Shown here piece after piece: positions 11,551 through 52,127 of a stretch of DNA of 64,000 nucleotides. The translations under genes and the position numbers were made by a program. Each line of letters opens with the position of its first letter. Within the stretch, counting starts at the first letter, position 1. The stretch covers positions 1-64,000 of the forward strand of contig NZ_LIPN01000031.1 in the NCBI RefSeq assembly GCF_001418325.1. The letters are read 5' to 3'. Source of the DNA: Streptomyces atriruber. Lineage in GTDB: Bacteria > Actinomycetota > Actinomycetes > Streptomycetales > Streptomycetaceae. A model generated the notes under the pieces. The model made no database searches and had not been told where the DNA came from. It was given only the letters and a program-made list of their open reading frames with translations.

Positions 11551-11624
11551 CGCGGGGTGGAGCAGCTCGGTAGCTCGCTGGGCTCATAACCCAGAGGTCG
11601 CAGGTTCAAATCCTGTCCCCGCTA
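11551..11624 (+). tRNA. Initiator tRNA-fMet (CAT), copy 1
   Basis: A full cloverleaf of 74 bases with anticodon CAT. The anticodon stem has three G:C pairs (GGG/CCC) and position 1 is an unpaired C opposite T72, the hallmarks of bacterial initiator tRNA. The T loop is GGTTCAAATCC. The CCA end is not encoded (CTG follows). A strong hairpin lies 9 bases downstream. A second identical gene is 2.2 kb away. Confidence 0.97.
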
Positions 11625-13780: not shown

Positions 13781-13854
13781 CGCGGGGTGGAGCAGCTCGG
13801 TAGCTCGCTGGGCTCATAACCCAGAGGTCGCAGGTTCAAATCCTGTCCCCGCTA
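13781..13854 (+). tRNA. Initiator tRNA-fMet (CAT), copy 2
   Basis: Identical over all 74 bases (and three further bases, CTG) to the copy at 11551, with the same initiator features: C1/T72 mismatch and GGG/CCC anticodon stem. Identity stops abruptly on both sides, so only the tRNA unit is duplicated. CCA is not encoded. Confidence 0.97.
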
Positions 13855-32476: not shown

Positions 32477-33601
32477 GTGCGTGCATATTCCGGGAGCACT
32501 TCACAGACACATCCGCACACGCGGCCACGTTCACCGGCGGTATCCGTACCGCCGGCACTGGCCGTTCCCATGATCGAAGCAGCGTTCCCTCGCCGACTGC
32601 ATCCGTATTGGCCAAAGCTTCAGGAGAAGTCCAGGACCTGGCTGCGCGAAATGCGGCTGATGCCCCCGGACAAGGTCGAGCGGTACGCGGACAGCCTCTG
32701 CTACACGGATCTGGTGGCGGGCTACTACATTGGCGCGCCGGACGCGTTGCTGACCGCGATAGCGGACCTCAGCAGCTGGTTCTTCGCGTGGGACGACCGG
32801 CACGACCGGGACTCGGTGCACGACAGGGCGGCACAGTGGCGGCGGCTGTGCCGGGGCCTGCACGGCACCCTCAACGAGCCCCGGCAGTACCTGCACCACA
32901 AGGACCCGTTGGTGGCGGGCTTCGCGGACTGCGTGCTGCGCCTGTACTCCTTCCTCGGTCCCAGCTGGAACGCCAGGTTCGCCCGGCACTTCCACCCGGT
33001 GATCGACGCGTACGACCAGGAGTTCCGAAACCGGCGCTGCGGCACCGTGCCGACGGTCGAGGCGTACATAGAGCTGCGCCGGCTCACGTTCGCGCACTGG
33101 GCGTGGATCGACCTCCTGGAGCCCACCGCGCGGTACGAGCTGCCGGACCCGGTGCGCAAGCACCCCGCGTACCGTCGTGCGGCACGGGCGACCCAGGACT
33201 TCTCGGCCTGGTACAACGACCTGTGCTCGCTCCCGAAAGAACTCGCGGGAGACGAACTGCACAATCTCGGAATCAGTCTCATCCAGCACGAGGGAATGAC
33301 GCTCGAAGAGGCCGTACGGGAAGTGCACAGGCGCGTCACTGATTGCGTCATGGAATTCATGCAGGCGGAACGGGAAGTCCTGCAATTCGCCGATGAATTG
33401 GCGGACGCGAGTGAGCGGGACGGGGAACTCGCGGACGCGGTGAAATCGTGCGTCTTCAACATGCGGAACTGGTTCTCTTCCGTTTACTGGTTCCATCACG
33501 AATCCGGACGCTATCGGGTGGACAGCTGGGACGACAGGTCCATGCCCCCCTATGTGACGGAAGAAGCCCTGGCGGAAAACGAACTGGTAGGTGAGGAATG
33601 A
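32477..33601 (+). CDS. epi-Isozizaene synthase (sesquiterpene cyclase)
   Basis: A 374-residue class I terpene synthase that should cyclise farnesyl diphosphate to epi-isozizaene, the first step to albaflavenone. Metal-binding motifs match the S. coelicolor enzyme: DDRHD at residues 106-110 (FFAWDDRHDRD) and the NSE triad NDLCSLPKE at 247-255. Further strong similarity runs through KHPAYRRAA and the C-terminal WFSSVYWFHHESGRY. The GTG start follows AGGGG by 8 bases; a TTG two codons earlier is less likely. The stop overlaps the P450 gene as ATGA, so the pair is translationally coupled. Product identity is inferred from similarity recalled, not measured. Confidence 0.92.
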   Translation: MRAYSGSTSQTHPHTRPRSPAVSVPPALAVPMIEAAFPRRLHPYWPKLQEKSRTWLREMRLMPPDKVERYADSLCYTDLVAGYYIGAPDALLTAIADLSSWFFAWDDRHDRDSVHDRAAQWRRLCRGLHGTLNEPRQYLHHKDPLVAGFADCVLRLYSFLGPSWNARFARHFHPVIDAYDQEFRNRRCGTVPTVEAYIELRRLTFAHWAWIDLLEPTARYELPDPVRKHPAYRRAARATQDFSAWYNDLCSLPKELAGDELHNLGISLIQHEGMTLEEAVREVHRRVTDCVMEFMQAEREVLQFADELADASERDGELADAVKSCVFNMRNWFSSVYWFHHESGRYRVDSWDDRSMPPYVTEEALAENELVGEE

Positions 33602-34974
33602 GCGTCGAATCCGCAATACCCGCTCCCCCCGCGTCGGGCCCCGATCCGTTGCGTACCCCGCCTGTCGTCCGCGGTGGCGCCCCGTTGCTCGGCCACGCAT
33701 GGAACCTGGTGCGTGATCCGCTCGGATTCCTCTCCGCGCTGCGCGACCATGGGGATCTCGTCCGGATCAGGCTGGGACCCAGGACGGCGTACGTGGTGTG
33801 CGACCCGGAGCTGGTCGGCGCCCTCCTGAAGAACCCCGAGTACGTCGTCGGCGGGCCGCTCTGGGACACCCTGGAGGTGCTCCTCGGCAAGGGCGTGGCG
33901 ACCAGCAACGGCAAGCTGCACCGGCGCCAGCGCCGCATGATGCAGCCCGCGTTCAGGCCGGAGCGGATCGCCGACTACGCCAAGGTGATGGAGGAGGAGG
34001 CCCGCGCCACGGCGGGCCGCTGGCGGCCGGGCGCCACGGTCGACGTGAGCGCCGAGATGTTCCGCACGGCCGTGCGCATCGTCTCGCGCTCGCTCCTGGA
34101 GGTCGACTCGATAGGGGACAAGGCGGACCGGATCGCCGACTCGCTGCACACCGTCTTCGACGGCCTCTACCGCCGGATGGTGCTCTCGGTCGGCCCGCTC
34201 CACCGCGTGCCGACCCCCGCCAACCGGCGGTTCGAGAGCGCGCTGGCCGATCTGCACGCGCTCGTCGACGAGATCGTCGCCGAGCGCCGGGCGGCCGGCC
34301 CCGGCGGGCCCGATGATCTCCTCGCCGAATTGCTGCGGGCCAGGGACGAATCAGGGGAGCCGATAGCCGACCAGGAGATCCACGACAACGTGGTTTCGCT
34401 CGTCGTGGCGGGTGCGGAGAATGTGGCGTCGACGCTGGCCTGGACGTTCCATCTGATGACCGAACACCCGGACCAGGAAAGGCGGTTGGTTGAAGAGGTA
34501 AATTCCGTCGCCCCGGGTCGCGCGATCACATTCGCCGATCTCAAGGACCTGCCGCACCTCCGCAATGTCGTCACGGAGGCGATGCGCATACGGCCGGCCG
34601 CTTGGATATTCACGCGCCGGTCCGTGGCCGAAACCGATCTGGGCGGCTATCGCATTCCGGCGGGCGCCGACATCGTCTACAGCGTGTACGCGATGCAGCG
34701 CGACCCGCGTTCCTTCGAGCGGAACCTGGAGTTCGACCCCGACCGGTGGAATCCGGAACGGGCAGCTGACGTACCGGAGTTCGCGATGATGCCGTTCAGC
34801 GTGGGCAACAGGAAGTGCCCCGGCGACCACTTCAGCCTGGCCGAACTCGCCCTGATCCTCGGGACGGTGGCCCCGAAGTGGCGCCTGGAGCGCGTCGCGG
34901 AGACCGACGCCAGCACCCAGGTCGGCATCACCCTGCACCCCAAGCGGCTCGTCCTGCGGGCCACGCCGCGCTGA
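33598..34974 (+). CDS. Cytochrome P450 of the CYP170A (albaflavenone synthase) type
   Basis: A 458-residue P450 expected to oxidise epi-isozizaene twice to albaflavenone. Heme-binding loop PFSVGNRKCPGDHFS has Cys407 as the ligand, and the ExxR motif is Glu327-Arg330. The I-helix reads AGAENVAST (271-279): the usual Thr of AGx[DE]T is Asn275, an uncommon change at the proton-relay position. The DDLLAELLRARDESGEP stretch from Asp239 aligns with the region implicated in the second, farnesene-synthase, activity of S. coelicolor CYP170A1. Redox partners are not encoded here. ATGA overlap with the cyclase gene. Confidence 0.92.
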   Translation: MSVESAIPAPPASGPDPLRTPPVVRGGAPLLGHAWNLVRDPLGFLSALRDHGDLVRIRLGPRTAYVVCDPELVGALLKNPEYVVGGPLWDTLEVLLGKGVATSNGKLHRRQRRMMQPAFRPERIADYAKVMEEEARATAGRWRPGATVDVSAEMFRTAVRIVSRSLLEVDSIGDKADRIADSLHTVFDGLYRRMVLSVGPLHRVPTPANRRFESALADLHALVDEIVAERRAAGPGGPDDLLAELLRARDESGEPIADQEIHDNVVSLVVAGAENVASTLAWTFHLMTEHPDQERRLVEEVNSVAPGRAITFADLKDLPHLRNVVTEAMRIRPAAWIFTRRSVAETDLGGYRIPAGADIVYSVYAMQRDPRSFERNLEFDPDRWNPERAADVPEFAMMPFSVGNRKCPGDHFSLAELALILGTVAPKWRLERVAETDASTQVGITLHPKRLVLRATPR

Positions 34975-35041: not shown

Positions 35042-36064
35042 CTAGAACTCGTCGTCGAACGAGACCGAGCCCTCCACCGCGACCTGGTACGCCGAGGGCC
35101 GCCGCTCGAAGAAGTTGGTCAGCTCCTGGACGCCCTGCAGCTCCATGAAGGAGAACGGGTTCTCCGAGCCGTAGACCGGCGCGAAGCCGAGGCGCTGCAG
35201 ACGCTGGTCGGCGACGCACTGCAGGTACTCGCGCATCGAGTCGGTGTTCATGCCGGGCAGGCCGTCACCGCACAGGTCGCGGGCGAACTGCAGCTCGGCC
35301 TCGACGGCCTCCTTCAGCATGTCGGTGACCTGTTGCTGGAGCGCGTCGTCGAAGAGCTCGGGCTCCTCCTTGCGGACCGTGTCCACCACGTCGAAGGCGA
35401 AGCTCATGTGCATCGTCTCGTCGCGGAACACCCAGTTGGTGCCGGTGGCCAGGCCGTGCAGCAGGCCGCGGCTGCGGAACCAGTACACGTACGCGAAGGC
35501 ACCGTAGAAGAAGAGCCCCTCGATGCACGCGGCGAAGCAGATGAGGTTGAGCAGGAAGCGACGGCGGTCGGCCTGCGTCTCCAGACGCTCCAGCTTCTCG
35601 ACCGAGTCCATCCACTTGAAGCAGAACTCGGCCTTCTCGCGGATGGAGGGGATCTCCTCGACCGCGTCGAAGGCCGCCGCGCGGTCCTCCGGGTCGGGCA
35701 GATAGGTGTCGAGCAGCGTCAGATAGAACTGGACGTGCACGGCCTCCTCGAAGAGCTGACGGCTCAGGTACAGCCGCGCCTCGGGGGAGTTGATGTGCTT
35801 GTAGAGCGTCAGCACCAGGTTGTTGGAGACGATCGAGTCGCCGGTCGCGAAGAACGCGACGAGCCGCCCGATCATGTGCTGCTCACCGGGGCTGAGCTTG
35901 GCGAGGTCGGCGACGTCCGAGTGGAGGTCGACCTCCTCGACGGTCCAGGTGTTCTTGATCGCGTCCCGGTAGCGCTCGTAGAAGTCGGGGTAGCGCATGG
36001 GGCGCAGGGTCAGCTCGAAGCCCGGGTCGAGGAGGTTCTTCTCGCTGTTCGTGGTGGAGCTCAT
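35042..36064 (-). CDS. nrdB: Class Ia ribonucleotide reductase, beta subunit
   Basis: A 340-residue R2 protein that houses the di-iron tyrosyl radical needed by NrdA. The core motif FEEAVHVQFY supplies iron ligands Glu107 and His110 and the radical Tyr114, so it is a tyrosyl-radical (not NrdF-type or Tyr-less) enzyme; further ligands lie in FRDETMHMSF. The C terminus (VEGSVSFDDEF) is the peptide that docks on NrdA. The ATG shares one base with the nrdA stop (TAATG). The gene is last in its transcription unit, next to a bidirectional terminator; no nrdS-like gene follows. Confidence 0.94.
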   Translation of the reverse strand: MSSTTNSEKNLLDPGFELTLRPMRYPDFYERYRDAIKNTWTVEEVDLHSDVADLAKLSPGEQHMIGRLVAFFATGDSIVSNNLVLTLYKHINSPEARLYLSRQLFEEAVHVQFYLTLLDTYLPDPEDRAAAFDAVEEIPSIREKAEFCFKWMDSVEKLERLETQADRRRFLLNLICFAACIEGLFFYGAFAYVYWFRSRGLLHGLATGTNWVFRDETMHMSFAFDVVDTVRKEEPELFDDALQQQVTDMLKEAVEAELQFARDLCGDGLPGMNTDSMREYLQCVADQRLQRLGFAPVYGSENPFSFMELQGVQELTNFFERRPSAYQVAVEGSVSFDDEF

Positions 36065-38490
36065 TACTGGCAGGCCTCGCAGGACTCGGGGTTTTCCAGG
36101 GAGCAGGCGACGGCGTCGGGGTCGGCGACCTGCTGGGGGACGGGGGCCGCGGCGGTGGTGTTCGAGCCGCCGGCCGCGCGGGCGATGCGCGTCGCGGGGC
36201 GCGAGCGCAGGTAGTACGTGGTCTTCAGGCCGCGCTGCCAGGCGTACGCGTACATCGAGGAGAGCTTGCCGATGGTCGGCGTCTCCAGGAAGAGGTTGAG
36301 CGACTGCGCCTGGTCGAGGAAGGGGGTGCGGTCGGCGGCCATGTCGATCAGGCCGCGCTGCGGGATCTCCCACGCCGTGCGGTACAGCGCACGGACCTCC
36401 GCGGGCACCCAGTCGAAGCCCTGCACCGAGCCGTTGGACTCGCGCAGCGCCTCACGGGTCTTCGCGTCCCACAGGCCGTGCCGCTTCAACTCCTCCACCA
36501 GGTAGGAGTTGACCTGGAGGAACTCGCCGGACAGCGTCTCGCGCTTGAAGAGGTTGGAGACCTGCGGCTCGATGCACTCGTAGACACCCGCGATGGACGC
36601 GATGGTCGCGGTCGGCGCGATGGCCAGCAGCAGGGAGTTGCGCATGCCGGTGGCGGCGATACGTTCCCGCAGCGCCGCCCAGCGCTCGGGCCAGGTCAGC
36701 TCCACGCCGTAGTGGTCGGGGTGCAGCACGCCGCGCGCGGTGCGGGTCTTCTCCCAGGCGGGCAGGGGCCCGTTGCGCTCGGCGAGGTCGGCGGACGCCT
36801 CGTACGACGCGAGCATGATGCGCTCGGCGATGCGCGTCGAAAGGGCGCGCGCCTCCGGGGAGTCGAAGGCCAGCTTGAGCTGGAAGAAGACGTCCTGGAG
36901 GCCCATCGCGCCGAGGCCCACGGGGCGCCACTTGGCGTTGGAGCGCCCGGCCTGCTCGGTCGGGTAGAAGTTGATGTCGACGACGCGGTCGAGGAAGGTG
37001 ACCGCGGTGCGGACGGTGTCGTCGAGCCGCTCCCAGTCGATGTCCTGGGCGGCCGGGTCGACGAAGGCACCGAGGTTCACCGAGCCGAGGTTGCAGACGG
37101 CCGTCTCCCCGTCGTCCGTCACCTCCAGGATCTCCGTGCAGAGGTTGGAGGAGTGCACGGTGTGGCCGGGCTCCGCCGTCTGGTTGGCGGTGCGGTTGGC
37201 GGCGTCCTTGAAGGTCATCCAGCCGTTGCCGGTCTGCGCCAGGGTGCGCATCATGCGGCCGTACAGGTCCCGGGCCGACATGGTCTTCTTGGCGAGCCCG
37301 GCGGCCTCGGCCTTGCGGTAGGCGGCGTCGAACTCCTCGCCCCACAGGTCGACGAGGTCGGGCACGTCGGCCGGCGAGAACAGCGACCAGTCCTGGTCGG
37401 CGGCGACGCGGCGCATGAACTCGTCGGGGATCCAGTGCGCGAGGTTGAGGTTGTGCGTGCGGCGCGCGTCCTCACCGGTGTTGTCGCGCAGCTCCAGGAA
37501 CTCCTCGATGTCGGAGTGCCAGGTCTCCAGATAGACCGCGGCCGCGCCCTTGCGGCGCCCGCCCTGGTTCACGGCGGCGACGGAGGCGTCCAGGGTCTTC
37601 AGGAACGGCACGATGCCGTTGGAGTGCCCGTTCGTGCCGCGGATCAGGGAGCCGCGGGAGCGGATGCGGGAGTAGGAGAGCCCGATGCCGCCCGCGTGCT
37701 TGGAGAGCCGCGCGACCTGGTGGTAGCGGTCGTAGATGGAGTCGAGCTCGTCCAGCGGGGAGTCGAGGAGGTAGCAGGACGACATCTGCGGGTGCCGGGT
37801 GCCGGAGTTGAAGAGGGTCGGCGAGGACGGCAGGTAGTCCAGGCGGCTCATCAGGCCGTACAGCGCGGCGACTTCGTCGACGGCGCGGGCGCTCACCGTC
37901 TCTGCATCAGGCACAGTCTCGGCGAGACCGCTCGCCACGCGCAGCATGAAGTGCTGCGGGGTCTCGATGACCTGGCGGGTGATCGGGTGGCGCAGCAGGT
38001 AGCGGCTGTGCAGGGTGCGCAGGCCGAAGTAGCCGAAGCGGAAGTCGGCGCCGTCGGCGAGCGCGGTGTCCACGAGCGCGTCGAGCCGGGCCGCGTGGGC
38101 GCTCACGAAGTCGGCGGTGCGGTCGGCGATCAGGCCCTCGCGGTGGCCGACGACGATCGACTCGGTGAAGGAGCGCACGCCCTGGGAGGCGGCCTCGGCG
38201 GCGATGGAGAGGGTGAGCAGCCTGGCCGCGAGCTTCGAGTACGCGGGGTCCTCGGAGATGAGCCCCGCGGCCGCCTCGGTCGCGAGGGTCCGCAGCTCCG
38301 CCTCGTCGGCCCTGGCCGAACGGCCGCGCAGCGCGGCGGCGGCGACCCGGCCGGGGTCGGCGTCGGGGAGGTCGGCGGTGAGGTCGGTCAGGGTGCGCAG
38401 CAGTGCGGTCCCTGGCCCGTCGGTACCCGCAGTGCTGTCGGTGGGCTGCGGTGCCCGCGCTGACGCAGGTTCGGCAGGCGCGATGGTCAC
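36064..38490 (-). CDS. nrdA: Class Ia ribonucleotide reductase, alpha subunit
   Basis: An 808-residue R1 protein that reduces ribonucleoside diphosphates. Core features are NLCTEILEVTDDGETAVCNLGSVNL (split: NLCTEI and CNLGSVNL) with the active-site cysteines, and the redox-active C-terminal pair in ENPESCEACQ. The sequence before the first core helix (ISEDPAYSKLAARLL) is too short and lacks the charged pattern of an ATP-cone, so overall-activity inhibition by dATP is probably absent. The GTG start follows GAGGGAGAG; upstream in-frame codons fall inside the riboswitch leader. It heads the nrdAB operon. Confidence 0.94.
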   Translation of the reverse strand: MTIAPAEPASARAPQPTDSTAGTDGPGTALLRTLTDLTADLPDADPGRVAAAALRGRSARADEAELRTLATEAAAGLISEDPAYSKLAARLLTLSIAAEAASQGVRSFTESIVVGHREGLIADRTADFVSAHAARLDALVDTALADGADFRFGYFGLRTLHSRYLLRHPITRQVIETPQHFMLRVASGLAETVPDAETVSARAVDEVAALYGLMSRLDYLPSSPTLFNSGTRHPQMSSCYLLDSPLDELDSIYDRYHQVARLSKHAGGIGLSYSRIRSRGSLIRGTNGHSNGIVPFLKTLDASVAAVNQGGRRKGAAAVYLETWHSDIEEFLELRDNTGEDARRTHNLNLAHWIPDEFMRRVAADQDWSLFSPADVPDLVDLWGEEFDAAYRKAEAAGLAKKTMSARDLYGRMMRTLAQTGNGWMTFKDAANRTANQTAEPGHTVHSSNLCTEILEVTDDGETAVCNLGSVNLGAFVDPAAQDIDWERLDDTVRTAVTFLDRVVDINFYPTEQAGRSNAKWRPVGLGAMGLQDVFFQLKLAFDSPEARALSTRIAERIMLASYEASADLAERNGPLPAWEKTRTARGVLHPDHYGVELTWPERWAALRERIAATGMRNSLLLAIAPTATIASIAGVYECIEPQVSNLFKRETLSGEFLQVNSYLVEELKRHGLWDAKTREALRESNGSVQGFDWVPAEVRALYRTAWEIPQRGLIDMAADRTPFLDQAQSLNLFLETPTIGKLSSMYAYAWQRGLKTTYYLRSRPATRIARAAGGSNTTAAAPVPQQVADPDAVACSLENPESCEACQ

Positions 38491-38627
38491 GTGGAGCTCT
38501 CCCTCGCTCGGCTCTGGGCCTGGGGGAGGGGATGGCACACACGGGCGCACCCGGGCAGGGCGGCGTACCGCGTCCACCGGCCCATTCCACGAGGCCCGGA
38601 CGGTCGGCACCCGGATCGGACGACACG
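38491..38627 (-). promoter_or_regulatory. Leader between riboswitch and nrdA
   Basis: The 137 bases between the aptamer and the nrdA start have no gene. They are G/C-rich with several possible short helices near the ribosome site (GAGGGAGAG), so they are the probable expression platform; I cannot tell attenuation from translational control. Confidence 0.5.
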
Positions 38628-38745
38628 GGTGCACTGCCGGCAGGTCTTCGGACTCCGCGTACGACAAATGCGTACACGTCTACCGTTGCGGGACAGTTCC
38701 GGACTTGCACCGGATTCCCCTGCGGCGACAGCGAGCACGAGCATA
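38628..38745 (-). promoter_or_regulatory. Cobalamin riboswitch upstream of nrdAB
   Basis: Read on the minus strand, the leader contains the conserved aptamer core GGGAATCCGGTGCAAGTCC (about 38719-38701), then CTGTCCCGCAACGGTA, and the B12 box AGTCCGAAGACCTGCCGGC (38654-38636). This is the adenosylcobalamin aptamer. In S. coelicolor a B12 riboswitch turns off nrdABS so that the cobalamin-dependent class II reductase is used when B12 is available; the same logic is expected here. Outer boundaries are approximate. Confidence 0.92.
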
Positions 38746-38755
38746 CATCTTGTGT
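38740..38755 (-). promoter_or_regulatory. NrdR-like box 1
   Basis: ACACAAGATGTATGCT (minus strand) resembles the 16-bp NrdR box. A 14-bp identical core (ACATCTTGTGTCGG on the plus strand) recurs 31 bp away, about three helical turns, the spacing typical of tandem NrdR boxes. Confidence 0.72.
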
Positions 38756-38770
38756 CGGCTCACTGAAGCA

Positions 38771-38786
38771 GGCCCACATCTTGTGT
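38771..38786 (-). promoter_or_regulatory. NrdR-like box 2
   Basis: ACACAAGATGTGGGCC (minus strand), the second copy of the tandem pair upstream of the riboswitch. It places NrdR repression at the nrdAB promoter. No nrdR gene is in the window. Confidence 0.7.
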
Positions 38787-38800
38787 CGGATCGCAGGGGT

Positions 38801-38844
38801 GTACGACGAAGGGCCGCCGGGAAGCCGGCGGCCCTTCGTCGTAC
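38801..38844 (-). terminator. Terminator of the MctP-like gene
   Basis: A perfect 20-bp stem starting GTACGACGAAGGGCCGCCGG with loop GAAG lies 38 bases after the symporter stop and isolates it from the nrdAB promoter, which fires away from it. Confidence 0.9.
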
Positions 38845-38881
38845 ACGGCCTCGTGCGCCGCGTCGTGCGGCAGGGGTCGGC

Positions 38882-40510
38882 TCAGTGGCCGGAGCCCGCC
38901 GTCGCCTTCGGCAGTTCCTCCATGACGCCGGGGTCGCCGGCGTCCGCGGTGTAGTCCTCCGGGGACGTCTCGTCGATGCCCTCAGGGGCCTTCAGCGCCT
39001 TCAGGACGAAGGTGAGGACCACGGTCACGACCACGTTCAGGACGAACGCGGTGAGGCCGATGTAGCCGATCTCACCGATGCCGGGGATATCGTCGGACGA
39101 GCCGCCGAAGTGCTTCTGCGTCGGCGACGCGACGCCGTACGCGGCGACCGTGCCGTAGACCATGCCGACCGCCCAGCCCGCGAGCAGCGCCCAGCGGTGG
39201 AACCACCGCGTGAACAGGCCGCCGACCAGGGCGGGCATCGTCTGCAGGATCCAGATGCCGCCGAGCAGCTGGAAGTTGATCGCGACCGTCTTGTCCATGG
39301 TGAGGACGAAGGCGAGCGCGCCCACCTTCACCAGGAGCGAGACCAGCTTGGAGACCTTGAACTCCTGTGCGGGTGTCGCGTCCGGCTTGAGGAAGTCCTT
39401 GTAGATGTTCCTCGTGAAGAGGTTCGCGGCCGCGATCGACATGATGGCCGCGGGCACGAGCGCGCCGATGCCGATGGCGGCGAAGGCGACGCCGGTGAAC
39501 CAGTCGGGGAACATGTTCTCGAACAGCTGCGGGATCGCCAGCTGGCCGTTCTCGACCTTGACCCCGGCCGCGATCGCCATGAAACCGAGCAGCGCGAGCA
39601 GGCCCAGCATCAACGAGTAGAGCGGCAGGATCGTGGTGTTGCGGCGGATCACGTCACGGCTCTTGGAGGAGAGCGTCGCCGTGATGGAGTGCGGATACAT
39701 GAAGAGCGCGAGCGCGGAGCCGAGCGCGAGCGTGGCGTAGGTCCACTGCCCGGCCTCGCCCGGCGCGAGGCCCGCGACGGGCTTGCCCGCCGCGTCGTTC
39801 GCCGCCGAGAACTTCTCGTTCGCCGCCTGGAAGATCTCGTCGAAGCCGCCGAGCTTGATCGGGATGTAGATGATCGCGACGGCGATGACGAGGTAGATCA
39901 GACCGTCCTTCACGAACGCGATCAGCGCGGGCGCGCGCAGCCCCGACGAGTAGGTGTACGCGGCGAGCACCGCGAACGCGATCAGCAGCGGCAGGTCCTT
40001 GATGAACCAGTTGGTGTCGGGCCCGCCGCCGATCCCCATGACGTCGAGGACGGCCTGGATGCCGACGAGCTGGAGCGCGATGTACGGCATCGTGGCGAGG
40101 ATGCCGGTGACGGCGACCGCCAGCGAGAGGCTCTTGGAGCCGAAGCGCCCGCGCACGAAGTCGGAGGTGGTCACATAGCCGTGTTTGTGCGAGACCGACC
40201 ACAGGCGGGGCAGGAAGGTGAAGATCAGGGGATAGACGAGGATCGTGTACGGCACGGCGAAGAAGCCGGCCGCGCCCGCCGCGTAGATCGCCGCGGGGAC
40301 GGCCACGAACGTGTAAGCGGTGTAGAGGTCGCCGCCGAGCAGGAACCAGGTGACCCAGGTGCCGAACGAACGGCCGCCGAGGCCCCATTCGTCCAGGCTC
40401 TCCTCGTTCTCCGCCTTGCGCCAGCGGGCGGCCAGGAAGCCCATGACCGTGACGGCGACGAAGAAGAAGACGAAGACCGCGAGGGCGACGCCGTTGACTC
40501 CGTCGTTCAT
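38882..40510 (-). CDS. Monocarboxylate/solute:sodium symporter (MctP/ActP-like)
   Basis: A 542-residue sodium:solute symporter with about thirteen helices. The opening GGRSFGTWVTWFLLGGDLYTAYTF and the central PHSITATLSSKSRDVIRRN are typical of the acetate/pyruvate/lactate branch (ActP, MctP, MctC). Substrates are therefore probably short monocarboxylates; the exact ones are not readable. The ATG overlaps the stop of the DUF3311 gene as ATGA. A pairing of a DUF3311 or DUF485 small protein with this symporter type is general. Confidence 0.88.
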   Translation of the reverse strand: MNDGVNGVALAVFVFFFVAVTVMGFLAARWRKAENEESLDEWGLGGRSFGTWVTWFLLGGDLYTAYTFVAVPAAIYAAGAAGFFAVPYTILVYPLIFTFLPRLWSVSHKHGYVTTSDFVRGRFGSKSLSLAVAVTGILATMPYIALQLVGIQAVLDVMGIGGGPDTNWFIKDLPLLIAFAVLAAYTYSSGLRAPALIAFVKDGLIYLVIAVAIIYIPIKLGGFDEIFQAANEKFSAANDAAGKPVAGLAPGEAGQWTYATLALGSALALFMYPHSITATLSSKSRDVIRRNTTILPLYSLMLGLLALLGFMAIAAGVKVENGQLAIPQLFENMFPDWFTGVAFAAIGIGALVPAAIMSIAAANLFTRNIYKDFLKPDATPAQEFKVSKLVSLLVKVGALAFVLTMDKTVAINFQLLGGIWILQTMPALVGGLFTRWFHRWALLAGWAVGMVYGTVAAYGVASPTQKHFGGSSDDIPGIGEIGYIGLTAFVLNVVVTVVLTFVLKALKAPEGIDETSPEDYTADAGDPGVMEELPKATAGSGH

Positions 40511-51790: not shown

Positions 51791-52127
51791 CCTCCGGCGT
51801 CGCAGGCCTGGCCGCAGGTCGGAAGATGTCGGCTCCGAATGTCGGAGAAAGAGACAACAACAAACATCTGCAGACGCATAGACATGGGAGAATGGTCTAG
51901 TCCACAATGCGTGGGTAAAGCCTCCGCTCTTCCCGCACAGGAGAGCGGATCGAGGAACCGGCGCTCTCTGCCCTGACCGCGTCGGATCCTCAAGATCGGC
52001 TGTCCAGTACCGCACATTCTGGCGGCCGATGCACCTGAAGGGCTGCGGTGCCGTGGGCGGGCTGAGGGTCCCGCCCTGGCGCCGCGGCTCGACGGGAGCC
52101 GCCGGACGCGAAAGGTACGCTCCACAC
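51791..52127 (+). other. Intergenic leader with DasR-like site
   Basis: 337 bases without a gene between the TetR and sensor-kinase genes. It is AT-richer around 51841-51910 (GAGACAACAACAAACATC and similar), where a promoter is likely. A DasR-box-like palindrome lies at 51891-51906. The last 100 bases before the kinase are GC-rich and featureless. Confidence 0.5.
51891..51906 (+). promoter_or_regulatory. DasR-box-like site before the sensor kinase
   Basis: AATGGTCTAGTCCACA matches the DasR consensus ACTGGTCTAGACCACT at 13 of 16 positions, as good as the nagB and dasA boxes. It is 222 bases before the kinase start. Binding is not proven. Confidence 0.55.

Follow-up and report, generated by a model that had tools for sequence, protein, structure and literature searches.

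The class Ia ribonucleotide reductase operon nrdAB in the stretch of Streptomyces DNA analysed here (64,000 nucleotides, below called the window) is very probably governed by two stacked off-controls, the repressor NrdR at a pair of promoter boxes and a B12 riboswitch in the leader. Double control of nrdAB was the core of the original prediction, and both of its layers, the box pair and a match to the Rfam Cobalamin family (RF00174), are present and conserved in position. The system is established Streptomyces biology, and the window holds a known arrangement in another strain, in which a nucleotide-sensing repressor and a cofactor-sensing RNA are joined in a way that would supply the B12-independent enzyme only on need. 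What is new, to our knowledge and within our searches, is the loss of a conserved G at position 13 (G13) of the proximal NrdR box across the Streptomycetaceae, together with the comparison of compact and long aptamers at one orthologous place. The open literature, outside which the original S. coelicolor papers lie and whose silence is weak evidence, yielded no mention of the G13 change or of a class-II-like nrdA aptamer.

We hold with middling confidence that two changes occurred at this locus in the Streptomycetaceae: the -10 element came to occupy the inner half of the proximal box, which cost the box its G13 and weakened NrdR, and in 12 of 14 genera with a class Ia nrdA a long class I aptamer, the ancestral form, was reduced in situ to a class-II-like one, keeping P1 at +1 and the hairpins H1 and H2. 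If this is true, nrdAB exemplifies in nature how a class II cobalamin riboswitch can derive from class I through loss of peripheral domains. The long-to-compact series would provide natural variants for probing the role of the peripheral domains of cobalamin riboswitches, and the loss of G13 in nearly the whole family offers a testable explanation for the somewhat weaker NrdR binding reported at S. coelicolor nrdAB.

The box pair, the promoter and the aptamer

The window lies on one contig (C235) of an 8.9-Mb assembly of 703 contigs, and its features are collected in Table 1. Its NrdA is up to 90% identical to those of 80 Streptomyces relatives; its nrdB product reached 266.8 bits against its best family, under the curated cut-off of 309, with an over-long frame as the query.

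Table 1. Features of the nrdAB locus and its control region in the window
Feature	Position	Strand	Remarks
nrdA	36067..38490	(-)	class Ia ribonucleotide reductase alpha subunit, 808 aa; GTG start at 38490; TIGR02506, 735 bits
nrdB	35042..36064	(-)	beta subunit, 340 aa; best family PRK07209.1
mctP	38882-40510		upstream of nrdA; from protein family search
Distal NrdR box	38771..38786	(-)	ACACAAGATGTGGGCC; C4 and G13 both kept
Proximal NrdR box	38740..38755	(-)	ACACAAGATGTATGCT; T replaces G13; 31 bp from the distal box
-10 hexamer TATGCT	38740..38745	(-)	inside the proximal box (box positions 11-16); invariant in 79 of 79 relatives
Predicted transcription start (+1)	38733	(-)	7 nt past the -10 hexamer, from whose position it is inferred; first base of P1
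Rfam Cobalamin (RF00174) match	38622..38744	(-)	45.9 bits, gathering threshold 31.5; E 2.5e-8; model positions 1-189
AdoCbl-II (RF01689) match	38634..38731	(-)	38.1 bits, cut-off 36.5
Paired aptamer	38632-38733	(-)	P1 formed by 38726-38733 with 38632-38639
Hairpin H1	38607..38632	(-)	directly after P1; fold z -3.86 against shuffles
Hairpin H2	38571..38602	(-)	conserved loop UCGYGG; candidate L13 partner of L5
Shine-Dalgarno region of nrdA	38498..38507	(-)	GCGAGGGAGA; from sequence; conserved in relatives

The identical 14-bp pair that had been noticed upstream of the aptamer is exact: the minus strand bears CCGACACAAGATGT at 38745-38758 and again, 31 bp away, at 38776-38789, and this 14-mer has no further match in the window even with 2 mismatches allowed (0.25 expected; at least two in 3 of 100 shuffles). 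In the whole assembly there are exactly two copies of the 11-mer ACACAAGATGT, both of them here, and none of its reversed control pattern. Box pairs were scored with weights of our own on the NrdR consensus. The pair scores 22.7, a value that 1000 dinucleotide shuffles of the upstream 400 bp never reach (maximum 21.0) and that no other place in the 64 kb approaches to within 0.5; the generic 16-bp consensus alone is not significant in the window, with 1 match at 3 mismatches and 0.37 expected. The geometry is that of an NrdR operator, two boxes whose centres are separated by a whole number of helix turns (31 bp; 15-bp spacer), and NrdR requires two boxes and binds most tightly with spacers of 15-17 bp (PMC12051234). 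All 79 Streptomyces relatives (loci L012-L091 without L053, which has too little upstream sequence) carry the pair, as do 25 of 26 leaders from other families at our own threshold of 20.5, two of the 25 scoring 20.7, and eight Streptomycetaceae loci that fell below the pair threshold in one scan. The spacing of 31 or 32 bp, the pair and the -10 hexamer are conserved across relatives.

Transcription is expected to start near 38733 because the invariant TATGCT fits the Streptomyces -10 pattern TANNNT (PMC8079986, PMC8780764); no -35 element was recognised, and a consensus sigma-70 scan gave no promoter. In the original prediction one box overlapped the start of the aptamer, an arrangement that does not survive a closer look: P1 begins 7 bases past the last base of the proximal box (38740), and the Rfam match begins at 38744 only through 8 unpaired flanking model positions. 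Since it is this unpaired flank that reaches 38744, what the box overlaps is the promoter rather than the folded RNA, and with the start site placed by the hexamer it most likely lies outside the transcript.

The aptamer passes the covariance-model search that had been proposed as a check (Table 1), and its core and B12 box are there as predicted; it is not complete, stretches of 23 and 53 model positions being cut to 3 and 8 nt. The only other RF01689 match in the genome is sub-threshold (28.1 bits, contig C104). The names of the arms are our own assignment. Judged from its sequence by the criteria quoted in PMC11260477, the aptamer is class-II-like: it has neither the P8-P12 peripheral extension nor the P2 arm of class I, it carries the GGAA of class IIb in J3/4 (as GGGGAA), and J6/3, read by eye, has AGUCCGA and not the UCU of class IIb.

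For covariation we aligned 66 of the 118 remaining compact leaders, the window included, after leaving out L138 and L164-L170 and losing L075, L149 and L180 to a motif filter. In this alignment G14-G16 and A18-A19 of J3/4 are invariant and G17 nearly so. Over P1, P3, P5 and H1, 95.5% of 1493 cells are paired against 92.0% in shuffles, and there are 58 double changes against 18.3, each value reached by 0 of 500 shuffles; further pair types in the aptamer and H1 structure do not rise above shuffles (215 of 500 reach the count), and the whole leader is no more stable than shuffles (z -0.69).

The two hairpins that follow the aptamer are backed in different ways, H1 by covariation and H2 mainly by conservation of sequence. 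All 6 counted pairs of H1 changed on both sides, and 90% and 75% of cells are paired in its two parts. H2 was handled outside the column alignment because for part of the Streptomycetaceae that alignment shifts it by one base; its loop motif is found in 121 of 122 compact leaders, and in the window H2 alone folds no better than shuffles (z -0.58). Among other families and the genera with long aptamers, 26 of 33 tails pass a loose criterion for an H2-like hairpin against 150 of 660 shuffled ones (the match in L174 is a different hairpin, and that in L108 is doubtful), and none of the seven tails of L164-L170 does. The arms of these hairpins are paired in 115 of 130 cells, a value reached by 0 of 1000 permutations, an excess that is partly selection since the tails were picked for paired arms.

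Loss of G13 and the compact aptamer across the Streptomycetaceae

The distal box keeps C4 and G13 in all 79 Streptomyces relatives. The proximal box has an equally invariant C4, but all 79 have T at position 13, as do 42 of 42 other family leaders whose aptamer is compact and 7 of 7 whose aptamer is long, so that the count for the family is 128 of 129 Streptomycetaceae leaders plus the window. The sole exception (L171, genome G008) stands before a divergent nrdA of 47% identity. In other families 25 of 26 proximal boxes have G13, the exception being L119, which lacks a recognisable pair; a -10-like hexamer lies inside the proximal box in 24 of these 26 leaders and is there compatible with G13.

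By our own mapping, C4 and G13 match base pairs 9/18 and 40/49, highly conserved GC pairs of PMC9110341. On nrdRJ DNA, inverting the conserved GC pairs cost NrdR binding about 50-fold or more, and the affinity of S. coelicolor NrdR is somewhat lower for nrdAB DNA than for nrdRJ DNA (both PMC9110341). NrdR may bind weakly in the Streptomycetaceae because the proximal box lacks the conserved G13, and weaker NrdR control of nrdAB may thus be predicted for the family.

The compact aptamer, 91-137 nt long with a middle value of 103 in the 66 aligned leaders, occurs in the rest of the Streptomyces leaders and in 42 leaders from elsewhere in the family, and by genus code in 12 of the 14 genera with a class Ia nrdA. 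Eight loci of the same genus (L093-L099, L102) were left out of the analysis. All 13 Streptomyces loci run against Rfam (of 80) gave a match, one of them best to AdoCbl-II, and 39 of the 42 leaders from elsewhere in the family have a hit to RF00174 or AdoCbl-II with E no higher than 0.01, the misses at that level being L131, L135 and L138; L128 misses the cut-off by 0.3 bits. Matches are longer, at 187-276 nt against 123, in two genera (L164-L170, 7 leaders), in L171 and in 25 of 26 other-family leaders. Outside the genus there were 30 class-Ia-like matches, and the 26 leaders read from them form the other-family set; 25 of these carry an Rfam cobalamin riboswitch, the exception not being the leader without a pair.

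Several single loci depart from the general picture. L171 combines its divergent nrdA and G13 with a long aptamer of 74.4 bits, and L142 (G023), of the same genus code, has a compact one; in L171 the whole module has perhaps been replaced. L119 (G167) has a cobalamin riboswitch of 102.5 bits before nrdA and no recognisable NrdR pair, and L123 (G164) has the pair and no riboswitch match at the gathering threshold; the two control layers may have been lost separately in these two. In L165 (G029) the nrdA riboswitch scores 43.3 bits and no nrdJ passes the family cut-off, in an assembly 96% complete where a gap is possible. Apparent insertions in the aptamer were seen by eye in L138 near the P5 arm and in L164, L165 and L168 before the GGGAA core.

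Control logic and the mode of the off state

The two layers would work in series. With plentiful dATP, an NrdR tetramer would occupy the two boxes three helix turns apart and RNA polymerase would be shut out, because the proximal box contains the -10 element. A transcript that escapes would start at about +1 with P1 of the compact aptamer, and on binding of adenosylcobalamin nrdA expression would be turned off, since the B12-dependent NrdJ can then take over. The net effect would be that the class Ia enzyme is made only when both dNTPs and B12 are short. The one nrdR found lies on another contig (C468) beside nrdJ and has its own box pair, 31 bp apart, upstream (a score reached by 0 of 1000 shuffles). 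The presence of nrdJ and class Ia NrdA together is expected if B12 decides which enzyme is made; a full-score nrdJ was found in 60 of 61 family genomes and a class Ia NrdA in 58 of 61. Between nrdR and nrdJ there is also an nrdJ RNA motif (RF03034, 75.2 bits, L179 522-604).

How the riboswitch would turn nrdA off can be read in two ways, which may also act together. Early termination of transcription, by an intrinsic site without a T tail or by Rho, we judge about as probable as its opposite. Much P. acnes nrdAB transcription appears to stop before the first gene (PMC3848588), and premature termination has been suggested at a different cobalamin riboswitch, one of S. griseus (PMC8914203); against such a mode, 38400-38950 contains no T-tailed terminator or terminator-like site.

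Concealment of the ribosome site as the main mode, in the manner of M. tuberculosis metE, falls slightly short of an even balance. Here the L13 loop of H2 would meet L5, and a pyrimidine-rich linker would act as an anti-site freed or trapped by H2. The metE precedent (PMC11260477) favours this, as does the conservation of the H2 loop with its GG, which like the UCC of L5 is invariant in the 66 leaders, and seven leaders from two genera in which no H2 was recognised (L164-L170) have CUCGCGAGGAG on the ribosome site itself; the same stretch, however, also occurs in several leaders that do bear H2 (e.g. L105, L110), and what has been published on S. coelicolor and P. acnes refers to transcription and premature termination (PMC4991794, PMC3848588). 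Contacts between L5 and L13 are known from other riboswitches. The sequences here fit a putative kissing contact; covariation between L5 and the H2 loop was discarded as support, as both hardly vary and the third base of L5 varies without matching changes in the H2 loop. Pairing energies of the linker barely exceed those of shuffles, with mean z of -0.42 for the ribosome site and -0.39 for H2 over 119 leaders (two leaders without a start found and one without H2 being excluded), -0.94 for the ribosome site in the 39 leaders that do not belong to the set of 80, and +0.7 and +0.4 respectively in the window. We keep anti-ribosome-site pairing, as judged by modelled energy, only as a working hypothesis.

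It is improbable that the compact aptamer is a decayed relic which no longer senses B12, leaving NrdR as the sole working control. Rfam scores are low in this lineage (31-65 bits where matched, against 62-110 in other families), three of the 42 family leaders are unmatched and two peripheral stretches are nearly gone, all as decay would have it; yet much of the core and the B12 box is invariant over the 66 leaders, the stems covary, the window passes the second cobalamin family as well, and S. coelicolor nrdABS is reportedly regulated through a B12 riboswitch (PMC4991794, citing Borovok 2006). A short upstream frame (NTG GGC CGG ... ending GTGA on nrdA) that couples translation as in M. tuberculosis ppe2 is very improbable and was rejected because the frame is not conserved: the window's 32-codon frame does end with a TGA overlapping the nrdA GTG, and NTGGGCCGG is present in 67 of 80 leaders, but of these 67 frames just 20 terminate at the start of nrdA, 14 are closed earlier and 33 continue in a different frame; among the 13 other leaders six, including S. 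griseus (L065), lack a start codon at that place.

Related systems and neighbouring genes

The parallel with S. coelicolor that had been drawn is borne out in the literature, with NrdR binding to two-box nrdAB DNA (PMC9110341) and a B12 riboswitch at nrdABS (PMC4991794, citing Borovok 2006). The nrdABS operon of that species (SCO5226-5224) resembles the window's in its two-box promoter, its leader riboswitch and an nrdRJ located elsewhere (PMC9110341, PMC4991794). It differs in that the window's operon lacks the AraC-like nrdS that there follows nrdA and nrdB, and in that the upstream gene is the co-transcribed SCO5227 in S. coelicolor (PMC4991794) and mctP in the window. In S. coelicolor, SenR is a third regulator, with reported binding close to the riboswitch on the upstream side of nrdA (PMC4991794). 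Of 80 Streptomyces loci, 51 have an nrdS-like gene in the vicinity of nrdA, and 3 of the other 29 are truncated; elsewhere the window's assembly yielded no close copy, its best protein being 51% identical. After nrdB, with no nrdS between, comes a convergent cytochrome P450 gene of the albaflavenone monooxygenase family (33598-34974).

Propionibacterium acnes nrdAB likewise has an nrd-box over the promoter, an annotated cobalamin riboswitch and apparent early termination; a single box is reported there, whereas the window has two (PMC3848588). Two riboswitches of M. tuberculosis share parts of the architecture (PMC11260477): the ppe2 switch, a class IIb variant, in the absence of P8-P12, a fused P1-P3 arm, GGAA in J3/4 and a J6/3 without UCU, and the class I metE switch in a downstream hairpin with L13. 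The window differs from both in that the gene controlled is nrdA, the platform hairpins H1 and H2 are different and the upstream frame is not conserved.

Between mctP and the nrdA promoter, at 38799-38846, there is a perfect 22-bp inverted repeat with a 4-nt loop (-49.1 kcal/mol, z -11.9), which is perhaps a T-less terminator or an insulator; two matches to mir-6536 (28.3 and 26.8 bits, cut-off 100) are this long hairpin and were discarded. Elsewhere in the window are a match to the sRNA scr5239 at 51921-52082 (124.7 bits) and two tRNA genes, at 11551-11624 and 13781-13854, which have equal scores and the same aligned sequence, with a CAT anticodon read by eye.
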